DNA from: Bacteroidota bacterium
Lineage (GTDB): Bacteria; Bacteroidota; Bacteroidia; B-17B0; Aurantibacillaceae
Length of the DNA stretch: 35,131 nt
Assembly: GCA_947450025.1 (NCBI GenBank)
Contig: CANFTW010000020.1
Coordinates: 1 to 35,131, forward strand
Direction: 5' to 3'
Shown here: in pieces, positions 4,924 to 7,923 of the stretch
Layout: each line of letters begins with the position of its first letter
How positions within the stretch are numbered: the stretch's first letter is position 1
Notes under the pieces: generated by a model
Told to the model about the DNA's origin: nothing
Database searches by the model: none
The model's input: only the letters and a program-made list of their open reading frames with translations
Position numbers and translations under genes: made by a program

Positions 4924-4954
4924 TTTGTTACCAAAATGTGTTATAGTATATAAG
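4924..4954 (+). promoter_or_regulatory. Possible promoter of the sigma-factor operon
   Basis: TTTG at 4924-4927 is followed after 19 bases by TATATAAG (4947-4954), which matches TAnnTTTG at six of eight places. The ATG is at 4965. The imperfect -7 could mean an alternative sigma factor, possibly self-regulation; this is inference. Confidence 0.4.
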
Positions 4955-4964
4955 CAGGTTAACT

Positions 4965-5543
4965 ATGAGTTTCGGGACAGAAACATATGATTTATTATCT
5001 AACACCAACAATGACGTGGTAAAATCACTTTATGAGTTGTATGCTAAAAAGCTATTAACATACACTTGTAAAAATTATACCATCGATAAAGATGATGCAT
5101 GGGCTATAGTATATAAAACGATATACAAAATAGCAGATGTACAATCTAATTACACCTTTGAACACGAACAAAAAAAATCGGCTTTTATTTTTAAAACGCA
5201 CATTAATTTTTTACGAAACTATTTTAGAGATAATAAGTCGTTTGAAAAAAACAACCAAGAAGTAGATTTACACGAAAACTTTACTGATAAAGAACCAGAA
5301 ACAAACACAACTCAAAACCTGCCCTTAACAATTTTACAACAAGAACTAGAAAAACTGGAAGATTGGCAACGTATATTATTGTTAATGCGTGGACAAGATA
5401 TGCCTTACAGTCAAATTTCCGAGTTCGTTAAAAAACCAGAAAACCAATTAAAAGTATACTATGCCCGATTAAAAAAACAATTAACGGATAATGTCAATGC
5501 CGAATTAGTAAAAATTAAAACAACACAACATGTCAACCCATAA
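4965..5543 (+). CDS. ECF-like RNA polymerase sigma factor
   Basis: This is a 192-aa sigma-70 family factor with regions 2 and 4 only. Region 2 spans roughly residues 20-90 (LYELYAKKLLTYTCKNY, DAWAIVYKTIYKI, then FIFKTHINFLRNYFRD). Region 4 spans about 125-180, with the helix-turn-helix in LEDWQRILLLMRGQDMPYSQISEFV and YYARLKKQL. The acidic linker between them is typical of ECF factors. Its last 14 bp overlap the start of the downstream membrane-protein gene, the layout expected of a sigma factor with its membrane partner. It probably acts on its own operon and an unknown regulon. Family certain; the signal is unknown. Confidence 0.88.
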   Translation: MSFGTETYDLLSNTNNDVVKSLYELYAKKLLTYTCKNYTIDKDDAWAIVYKTIYKIADVQSNYTFEHEQKKSAFIFKTHINFLRNYFRDNKSFEKNNQEVDLHENFTDKEPETNTTQNLPLTILQQELEKLEDWQRILLLMRGQDMPYSQISEFVKKPENQLKVYYARLKKQLTDNVNAELVKIKTTQHVNP

Positions 5544-7923
5544 TAAATATTCACGCCATGGTGTGACTGAAAAAGAGCTCGATAACCTGCTAGGTCAAGC
5601 CTTTTTAAATTTAGATTTTAATAATCCTAAAAACCAAGAACTTATGGAAACGATATCAAATCAAGTGTTGCCTACATCTCCTGTATGCACAGGGCTCATT
5701 AATAAAGCATTTTTTACTAAATTGATGTGTATTATTCTCACCATTGCAACAAGCATATTTATTTACTTTCATTATTTTTTAAATAATAATCAGCAAGTCG
5801 TAAAAAACACAAGCTCAACCAACGAATCATCTTCAAACTCAGAGCAAATAATCAACAATTCAAAAGAAGATGTTGCTACTTATACTCACAATAATAGGAT
5901 AATTGAAACGACAAAAGAAAATCAACCAACTGCAACCGAAGCTATAAAACAGCAAGAGCCTATACTACAGGAATTTCCAAAACATCAAATCCCAACAAGT
6001 TCTAATATTGAGGAGGAGAAAAAAATAAAAAATGAGGACACCAATTATGTATTCCCTAAACTCACGGAGAAGGAAATAAAAGAAACAAAGAAACAAAAAG
6101 AAAAAATGACCAATTGGTTATTAAAGCAAAGTAAAAACAAATATGCTTTAGTGATACCAAAAGGTGCTCATTCAATCATGAGCAATATCAATGATACGCT
6201 TGCTCAATTTTTCATGCAAAATTCAGAAGTTAGTAATTTAGAATATCGAACATTTCTATTTGACTTATTAATAAACGGAGAAAAAGAAACATTCTTAAAA
6301 GCAAAACCTTACCAATCATTATGGTTAAATGCTCCAGGGCATGCTAAAGGAAACCTGATGAAAGATTTATATTTTTCAGATAAACGATACAATGATTATC
6401 CAGTTGTTAATATTACACAAGAAGGCGCTGAATTGTATTGCAAATGGTTAAGTAAGATGACACTTTCAAAATACACTAGTGTTATAGCTCGATTACCTTA
6501 TGAAAACGAATGGATAAAAGCAGCAAAATATAAAGATGAAAATGCATATCCATGGCCAGGAGATTCTATTCAAAACAAATTGGGATGTTTTTTAGCTAAC
6601 TTTTGTATTCAAAAACAAAGTGAAAAATTAAGGCCAAATCACCACATCAAATGTTCTGCTAAAAACCCTAACGCCTATGCCTCTGCAGAATATATGCTAG
6701 GCGATTCTATGATGCCAACATTAGTGTATTCATACAATCCAAACGATTACGGCTTATACTGTATGACAGGTAATGTTGCCGAAATGGTTTATACAAATAA
6801 AAATAAATCCATCATTACTAAAGGTGGTAGTTGGAATAGTGATTTTGAACAATGTAAAATTTTCAACCATGAAAATCTTGACGGAACTGTCAAAGCAAAT
6901 CCTATGACAGGCTTTAGACCTATTTTTAGAATTAGTCAAGCGCATTCTTTTGGTTCAATTCAAAGAGATATTTCGGGAACGGGTTTACAAGAATTAACAG
7001 CTGAAGAAATAGCATCCACTCAAAAAGAAAAGCAAAAAATGATTGAAGCTTTAGCAAAATTGAACAAAGACAAGTATGCTTATATTCCAATGGGTTCATT
7101 TTTGTATAAAAAAGACACGTTTTCTGTTCAATCATTTTATATGGAAACAACGGAAGTTACAAATCTTGAATACAGAATATTTTTAGCTGACTTACTAATT
7201 CAGAATAGAACTGATGATTATTTAGTTGCAAAACCAAATCAAGAAGCTTGGGTCACTAAATTTCCATGGAGTTTTAATGAGCCGATGAGAGACATGTATT
7301 TTTGGCATCCTGCTTATAATGAATACCCTGTAGTCAACATTTCTCGTAAAGGAACTGAATTGTATTGTTTATGGCTTACAAATGAAACTAATAATTATTT
7401 AAAGGCAAATAATAAACCTTTAATCAATGATTTAAGAATTCCTGTTGATCTCGAATGGGCATATGCCGCTAATAATGGAAAAAATCAAGTAAAATATGCA
7501 AATGGCAACACTTATCTAAGAGATAGTAAAGGGAGATTTGAAATGAACTATATGTGCTATTCAAAAGAACAATGTAAATACGATAGTATTATGGAAATTT
7601 ATATTCCTAAAAGTAAAGAAGAACTTAAAGAAACAGATACAAATGCTCCTAAATTTATAGACGATGGAGGCTTTCATACCGTTTATGTTAAATCCTATGC
7701 TCCTAATAGTTACGGATTATTTTGTATGGCAGGTAATGTTTCTGAAATGGTTTATACTTACGATAAAATAAATAATAAATATTTAAAAACTGGAACAAAA
7801 GGTGGAAGTTGGTATAGTTGCGATTACTTTTTAGAAATTGATGCCTATGACGAATATAAAAATGAAATCAATGCATCACCTTTAATTGGCTTTAGACCTG
7901 TAATGACGGCTTTAAAGGAATAA
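5530..7923 (+). CDS. Membrane protein with two FGE/SUMF1 (GldJ/GldK-like) domains, putative sigma-factor partner
   Basis: The 797-aa product has a 60-residue cytoplasmic head (VTEKELDNLLGQAF...), one membrane span (about 62-84), a low-complexity Ser/Asn/Lys-rich stalk to about 200, and two tandem formylglycine-generating-enzyme folds (about 205-468 and 515-795). The copies share YPVVNI, GLYCM/GLFCM-GNV-EMVYT, TKGGSW and GFRP motifs, so they arose by duplication. They resemble the FGE folds of gliding/T9SS proteins GldJ and GldK (MET-TEVTNLEYR). In active FGE two cysteines follow GGS; repeat 1 keeps only the second (Ser replaces the first) and repeat 2 keeps neither in register, so catalysis is unlikely. 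Overlap with the sigma gene suggests that the head is an anti-sigma domain; I do not recognise it as a known family. Confidence 0.8.
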   Translation: MSTHNKYSRHGVTEKELDNLLGQAFLNLDFNNPKNQELMETISNQVLPTSPVCTGLINKAFFTKLMCIILTIATSIFIYFHYFLNNNQQVVKNTSSTNESSSNSEQIINNSKEDVATYTHNNRIIETTKENQPTATEAIKQQEPILQEFPKHQIPTSSNIEEEKKIKNEDTNYVFPKLTEKEIKETKKQKEKMTNWLLKQSKNKYALVIPKGAHSIMSNINDTLAQFFMQNSEVSNLEYRTFLFDLLINGEKETFLKAKPYQSLWLNAPGHAKGNLMKDLYFSDKRYNDYPVVNITQEGAELYCKWLSKMTLSKYTSVIARLPYENEWIKAAKYKDENAYPWPGDSIQNKLGCFLANFCIQKQSEKLRPNHHIKCSAKNPNAYASAEYMLGDSMMPTLVYSYNPNDYGLYCMTGNVAEMVYTNKNKSIITKGGSWNSDFEQCKIFNHENLDGTVKANPMTGFRPIFRISQAHSFGSIQRDISGTGLQELTAEEIASTQKEKQKMIEALAKLNKDKYAYIPMGSFLYKKDTFSVQSFYMETTEVTNLEYRIFLADLLIQNRTDDYLVAKPNQEAWVTKFPWSFNEPMRDMYFWHPAYNEYPVVNISRKGTELYCLWLTNETNNYLKANNKPLINDLRIPVDLEWAYAANNGKNQVKYANGNTYLRDSKGRFEMNYMCYSKEQCKYDSIMEIYIPKSKEELKETDTNAPKFIDDGGFHTVYVKSYAPNSYGLFCMAGNVSEMVYTYDKINNKYLKTGTKGGSWYSCDYFLEIDAYDEYKNEINASPLIGFRPVMTALKE

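Follow-up and report, generated by a model that had tools for sequence, protein, structure and literature searches.

The window analysed here, a stretch of 35,131 nt (contig CANFTW010000020.1 of the Bacteroidota assembly GCA_947450025.1), contains two overlapping genes, one for a putative sigma factor of the extracytoplasmic function (ECF) kind and the other for a membrane protein whose outer part comprises two domains of the formylglycine-generating enzyme (FGE) fold. The sigma factor and the membrane protein are a conserved, co-inherited pair. We consider, with a probability of roughly three in four, that they constitute an autoregulated sigma/anti-sigma switch, in which a new family of cytoplasmic heads would bind and inhibit the sigma factor and a GldK-like outer part would act as the sensor.

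The sigma factor and its membrane partner

The product of the first gene matched TIGR02937 (sigma70-ECF; E 5.6e-8, 32.6 bits) and Pfam Sigma70_r4_2 (E 6.5e-5, 22.9 bits) below their curated cut-offs of 42.9 and 25.7 bits, which are thresholds for naming rather than properties of the protein itself. A profile built from 24 sigma sequences of the family aligned over nearly its full length with PDB chains of SigH (1.6e-5) and SigE (1.3e-4), and the product has the trait of ECF (group IV) factors, ca. 190 residues with only regions sigma2 and sigma4, as in SigE and SigH. By these profile matches it is classed as ECF-like, a predicted divergent relative of the ECF sigma factors. The pair is isolated in the window, between a gene that we take to code for a transporter and, on the other side, a presumably KdtA-like gene.

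In the partner, the best hydrophobic window covers residues 60–78 and none occurs beyond residue 130; a linker and the FGE domains follow (Table 1). Judged from its position behind a charged head alone, this span speaks against an N-terminal lipoprotein signal. Pfam PF03781 matches the partner in two stretches (159.7 bits for the whole protein), and the domain limits were set with a local profile. The two domains share 36% identity over 300 positions, and the second is 37% identical over 254 positions to the GldK encoded elsewhere in the same genome.

Table 1. Features of the sigma/partner module in the window, and four-gene rows at loci of a sister sigma type
Feature	Coordinates	Strand	Remarks
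Promoter-like motif TGTTACC-N5-GTGTTATA-N5-TAA, putative autoregulatory site	4926–4953	+	39 bp before the sigma start codon
Divergent ECF-type sigma factor (predicted), 192 residues	4965–5543	+	open reading frame and sigma profile matches
Membrane partner, putative anti-sigma factor, 797 residues	5530–7923	+	begins 14 bp inside the sigma gene
Cytoplasmic head, ca. residues 1–58, putative sigma-binding domain	5530–5703	+	motif LDxLLxxAFL; no named family
Single membrane span, ca. residues 59–80	5704–5769	+	
First FGE/GldK-like domain, residues 190–466	6097–6927	+	GGSWNS
Second FGE/GldK-like domain, residues 501–793	7030–7908	+	GGSWYS; nearest GldK/PorK
Sister-type four-gene rows	L092:4730–9325; L140:5020–9614; L141:5039–9676; L138:5094–9662		

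The gene context was read in 47 loci, 45 of which have a readable next gene (L078 and L139 run into contig ends; a copy in genome G002, cut within the sigma gene, is outside the 47). As partner we accepted the longest open reading frame (ORF) on the strand of the sigma gene whose start lay between 80 nt upstream and 60 nt downstream of the sigma stop codon, and the sigma start codons were set by hand in some loci (L042, L083 and L090). The sigma gene directly precedes the partner in 45 of 45 readable loci, with partner starts at −44 to +11 nt from the sigma stop, and the pair occurs in many families of the class, amid differing gene surroundings. Among these 45, 41 partners have a head and a span, which defines the main type (the head is still visible in the remaining bases of L078), and four (L092, L138, L140 and L141) are soluble proteins of 185–202 residues, all without a span, and were set apart as a sister type. 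Since L136 and L137 have lower sigma scores than L092, yet their partners have head, span and FGE, the types were split by the partner and not by the score.

A hydrophobic stretch starts at residue 53–85 in all 41 main-type partners, with no other past residue 130. The outer part is less constant: an FGE domain is present in 35 of the 41, typically as a single domain and in tandem in six of those 35, the tandem being a derived state, whereas the other six (L083, L087, L091, L126, L132 and L133) keep head and span without FGE. The outer part is DUF3471-like in L132 (7.5e-5) and LiaG-like in L133 (3.7e-14), both below cut-off, and short in the remaining ones. An inner head that stays the same, joined to an outer domain that can be exchanged, is the plan of a signal receiver.

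A profile from eight sigma sequences retrieved 25 rows from 20 of 87 genomes of the family, and the 24-sequence profile at least 25 rows from at least 23 of 395 genomes drawn class-wide, 23 of these rows being new. A draw of 395 genomes from the phylum (E 1e-30) yielded at least six rows: the window, three sister-type loci (L114–L116, the rows behind L138, L140 and L141), L191 and L192. In the class and phylum draws up to eight candidates of each genome were scored, and sigma genes have possibly been missed. The main type is present in 19 of the 87 family genomes, in at least 19 of the 395 of the class draw (one cut) and in at least one of the 395 of the phylum draw, the window's own genome, the neighbours of L191 and L192 being unread. 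Within the window's genus the sigma gene occurs in six of 20 genomes, and a seventh, G019, keeps the end of an FGE gene at a contig edge. A head profile of 69 positions gave 23 matches in 18 of the 87 family genomes, all beside a sigma gene, and no orphan head; most of these heads or close relatives are in the profile, such that the informative part is the absence of matches elsewhere, which very divergent orphans could have escaped. The sigma-positive family genomes without a head match are G088, which has a sister-type partner, and G002, in which the contig ends within the sigma gene.

The distance matrices of the sigma factors correlate with those of the heads (r 0.76, 41 pairs) and of the outer parts (r 0.67, 38 pairs), values reached in 0 of 2000 permutations in either case. 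A swap test in genomes with two readable pairs is stronger evidence than these correlations: summed over the two pairs of a genome, the cognate pairing beats the swapped one in six of six genomes, for the head as well as for the outer part. The weakest case is the G255 head, for which one of the two members gains nothing.

These data agree with most of what the original prediction had read from the window, namely an ECF-like sigma gene overlapping its neighbour by 14 bp, an overlap found again in the relatives L043, L049, L050 and L051, and a product with a short head, one span and two FGE folds. The pairing, whose conservation had been proposed as a check, holds in every readable locus, and the occurrence of the membrane protein apart from the sigma gene, named beforehand as the sign of an accidental pairing and searched for with the head profile, was found in none of the 87 genomes. 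The duplicated FGE fold suggested as the sensor stands for the window and does not extend to the family, where a tandem is the minority and six partners have no such domain.

A promoter-like motif before the sigma operon

The three parts of the motif in Table 1 are TGTTACC (4926–4932), GTGTTATA (4938–4945) and TAA (4951–4953), and the strict pattern has a single match in the window and in the whole window genome. A weight matrix built from 27 sites next to sigma starts was run over the 47 loci (505,533 bases); dinucleotide shuffles gave a chance level of 0.4 sites of 15 bits in all 505 kb. Of the 43 main-type loci, 39 have the motif ahead of the sigma gene itself or ahead of the operon that contains it; the matrix was derived from 27 of these 39. 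Twelve of the 16 held-out main-type loci have a site of at least 15 bits, either right before the sigma gene (L078 and L134) or before the first gene of its same-strand row, the putative operon head (L044, L045, L079, L082, L084, L085, L086, L119, L121, with two sites, and L124). In L083 and L128 the motif falls just past the first possible start, which is therefore probably set too far upstream. In the genus, the strict motif accompanies the sigma gene in all six sigma-bearing genomes, but not the second pair of G005 (L042). Given this recurrence, it is likely that the sigma factor reads this motif, its putative promoter, and controls its own operon.

Several observations weigh against this interpretation. 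Among the held-out loci, L042 and L122 are without a site of even 10 bits, L132 reaches only 11.5 bits and L081 is cut upstream, and two of the positives are borderline (L085, 15.3 bits; L124, 15.5 bits). The distance from the motif to the next gene ranges from 12 to 177 nt, and an unexpected site of 16.6 bits is situated at the start of a KdtA-like gene in L049. Nor is a wider regulon seen in the genus: the strict motif occurs 14 times in total versus 16 for the reversed control in 20 genomes, and a looser search gave 10 matches versus 11 in seven genomes.

It is conceivable, albeit rather improbable, that the motif belongs to another regulator and that the module does not regulate itself, which would be compatible with an anti-sigma role of the partner. 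A GTGTT block lies inside the expected spacer of an ordinary ECF promoter, which is unusual, and in the genus the strict motif marks almost only the sigma operon. Nevertheless, the motif tracks the sigma gene across lineages, being found at the start of the putative operon where the sigma gene lies further inside, and a related TGTAACC element is found at the sister sigma type. For comparison, the SM6 ECF motif of Flavobacterium psychrophilum is described, in the available portion of the source, as a promoter class with type IX secretion system (T9SS) genes and a sigma/anti-sigma operon (PMC9723704); the likeness lies in those genes and that operon, and the motif here differs in being TGTTACC-N5-GTGTTATA-N5-TAA.

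Besides the sigma operons, only two sites of the genus looked well placed, an exact one in G017 and one with one mismatch in G019. The former, a second exact copy of the motif in that genome, starts 43 nt before a small lipoprotein gene (L156:4903–5523), between what we take to be a GlpQ-like gene and truA. This type of lipoprotein occurs in two of the 20 genomes of the genus, among them G008, which is without the sigma gene, and is absent from the window genome. Since the pair of G005 adjoins the GlpQ-like gene and that of G019 adjoins truA, the pair may have resided at this site earlier in the history of the genus. Another small lipoprotein-like gene lies right after the pair in G039 (L126:6185–6484) and shares with that of G017 a C(A/V)(I/V)H..FPFICFL..C stretch, a likeness seen by eye. 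In G019, the site is 38 nt before a gene for a membrane-like protein of 415 residues (L159:1501–2786), near the distance seen in the window, and this gene is possibly a further target or a chance match. A second, weak site (12.6 bits) in L134 precedes a separate gene pair for a secreted-looking protein of 267 residues and a VWA protein.

Probable anti-sigma role, putative sensor and possible signal

The original prediction did not recognise the head as belonging to a known anti-sigma family, and neither did our searches: a Pfam scan of 38 heads (E ≤ 1) returned 17 families, each matching a single head and none of them anti-sigma, and comparison with PDB chains gave no match (best E 0.84). According to the accessible part of PMC7406223, class I anti-sigma domains average 101 residues in four helices, CnrY, of class II, wraps its sigma factor with two helices, and a class I domain accompanies only 6% of the ECF sigma factors in Bacteroidetes. 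The partner has the conserved sigma linkage, cytoplasmic head and single span of anti-sigma factors, and resembles those of class I in that its gene comes right after the sigma gene and in the cytoplasmic N-terminus, the one span often found and the sensor outside. However, the head comprises ca. 58 residues up to the span and matches no Pfam family consistently, and that of the window has a single Cys, and so is without the Hx3Cx2C zinc signature; a class I domain was discarded on length (ca. 58 vs. ca. 100 residues) and profile. A class II domain has one of its two helices on sigma4 and the other on sigma2. The short head resembles class II, as would the two helices suggested at residues 14–26 and 33–46 by an AlphaFold model of very low confidence, but no sequence match supports this (PDB, none below E 0.8) and the outer domain is FGE-like. 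The literature searched (titles, beginnings of abstracts and matches listed), whose coverage is partial and the negative weak, contained no description of an anti-sigma pair of the FGE/GldK type.

Against an anti-sigma role count the absence of any match between the head and known anti-sigma domains in Pfam and PDB, the AlphaFold model of the partner, built from five close sequences and unusable (mean predicted local distance difference test, pLDDT, 29.8), and the patchy distribution of the main-type module. Also, linkage alone predicts co-inheritance of adjacent genes, so the matrix correlations are no proof of contact, and the head could be an activator instead of an inhibitor. The membrane protein would then be a positive partner of the sigma factor (a co-activator, membrane anchor or chaperone), which also fits the adjacency, the lack of orphan heads, the co-inheritance and a head that is no known anti-sigma domain. 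We nevertheless consider this quite improbable, because a head that stays constant while the outer domains vary suits a signal receiver and because, as stated in the available part of PMC7712824, the regulator of an ECF sigma factor is mostly an anti-sigma factor whose gene lies next on the same transcript.

The outer part of the partner is nearest to GldK, its best NCBIfam match (245.6 bits, under the equivalog cut-off of 350 bits), and it also scores under the GldJ cut-off; among PDB chains it matches PorK (E 1.6e-24). It has the fold of the T9SS and gliding lipoproteins GldK/PorK and GldJ, but a head and a span probably replace the lipoprotein start. A GldK/PorK proper was rejected on the missed cut-off; the genome's own GldK scores 558.7 bits. 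In formylglycine-generating enzymes the catalytic Cys lies within GGS[Y/F]xC. Both domains of the window have Ser at this position, and the Cys right behind the second motif is not conserved in L049; an enzyme is therefore unlikely. The GldK-like outer part is probably enzymatically dead and would act as a sensor. The GldK and PorK matches would also suit an accessory T9SS or gliding component, an inner-membrane paralogue of GldK with which the sigma gene is merely co-transcribed. This is very unlikely: the GldK cut-off is missed, the true GldK is encoded beside PorP, GldM and GldN, six of 41 partners keep head and sigma gene without any FGE domain, and no head occurs without the sigma gene in the 87 family genomes. 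Overlapping genes are many in compact bacterial genomes, but an accidental overlap of unrelated neighbours has a negligible probability given their invariable adjacency in many families and differing surroundings.

In the sigma/anti-sigma switch that we favour, the head, possibly as two helices, would hold the sigma factor at the inner membrane, while the GldK-like outer part, duplicated in the clade of the window, would bind something in the periplasm. A change in this contact would release the sigma factor, by proteolysis or a change of shape. Starting at the TGTTACC-N5-GTGTTATA-N5-TAA site, the free sigma factor would then transcribe the operon to which it belongs and, in lineages whose operon includes them, outer-membrane and surface genes as well.

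The signal sensed may be the state of the T9SS or of outer-membrane proteins, our leading candidate on account of the fold and of the operon neighbours in other lineages, although we hold it tentatively, at slightly less than even odds. The T9SS locus of the window genome contains together the genes for PorP, GldK, GldM and GldN, all passing the NCBIfam cut-offs, and one that we call gldL from its position and appearance only. Co-occurrence with the T9SS was dropped as evidence, since the system is near-universal in the class (GldM in 378 of 395 genomes) and co-occurrence is thus uninformative. The idea of a link to secretion or envelope gains indirect support because PorP/SprF or other outer-membrane genes share the putative operon in some lineages; PorP-like proteins anchor T9SS cargo, according to the available part of PMC9143113. 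Pfam identifies PorP/SprF just upstream of the pair in L042 (1.6e-66), inside the motif-headed row of L121 (1.7e-66) and, divergently oriented, in L090 (6.9e-16). A distant PorP-like protein and a DUF4139 protein (by Pfam for L045) precede the sigma gene in five loci, and the DUF4139 protein alone in L081. The distant PorP-like proteins of L079, L082 and L121 gave no Pfam match, and that of L079 matched TIGR03519 below cut-off (1.8e-4). By clustering, a secreted-looking protein, without Pfam match in the two loci examined (L086 and L119), and a VWA protein (tested in L124 and L134) are encoded nearby in five loci, and an OMP_b-brl_3 protein follows the pair in L077, with similar genes in L080 and L087. 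In addition, a secreted-looking protein of 435–449 residues, with no significant Pfam match, opens the motif-headed sigma row in L044 (3324–4673) and L084 (5989–7296).

A connection between an ECF sigma factor and the T9SS is known from Porphyromonas gingivalis, where, in the available part of PMC7712824, SigP is tied to this system and auto-regulated. The module studied here would be similar in these respects, but SigP is activated via the two-component system PorXY, whereas here a membrane partner is encoded beside the sigma gene. If our reading is true, the pair could be a route from the state of the T9SS or outer membrane to transcription other than PorXY–SigP and, if confirmed, would give several Bacteroidota lineages a sensor of a kind new for bacteria. 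It offers a testable sensor, the GldK-like fold, and a predicted promoter. Since class I domains accompany so few Bacteroidetes ECF sigma factors (PMC7406223, available part), the head family is a candidate answer to how some of the others are controlled, and a candidate for a regulator class still missing from the phylum.

A broader and more speculative proposal, unlikely in its entirety, is that the LDxLLxxAFL head defines a new anti-sigma class, joined in several lineages of the Bacteroidota to exchangeable outer sensors, mainly a GldK-like pseudoenzyme, and that the GldK mimic serves as a checkpoint of the T9SS. The mimic and GldK/PorK would be rivals for a ring partner or for the PorP-like anchors of cargo; a free partner, left by stalled or unfinished assembly, or unloaded anchors would lead to release of the sigma factor, such that the system would be monitored by a copy of one of its own parts. 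The sister sigma factor, in operons with a class II Argonaute, would be controlled by this head in a form lacking the span.

Sister sigma type and a second sigma factor

Over 56 columns, the N-terminus of the sister-type soluble partners can be aligned with the head profile (pairwise E 1.5e-4, probability 51%), which is no more than suggestive. In the sister-type rows (Table 1), the sigma gene is followed by genes for the soluble protein, a Cas4-like PD-(D/E)XK nuclease and a long class II prokaryotic Argonaute, with a TGTAACC-N6-CATATA-like element upstream. With PADLOC, both the Argonaute (4.8e-295 in L140) and the nuclease were identified in L140 and L141, and in L092 the Argonaute; L138 was assigned by eye. 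The literature searched yielded no paper on an operon of Argonaute, ECF sigma factor and Cas4.

The window genome also encodes, in contig C4 (L180:2134–5308), a second and clearly different ECF sigma factor. Its gene is followed by those for a protein of 587 residues, with a span recognised by eye, and for a 259-residue FGE/GldK-like protein. Of the nine loci of the genus read for this arrangement, two stand on contigs that stop short of the sigma gene and L188 has a distant FGE match only; the order of the three genes is the same in the other six.

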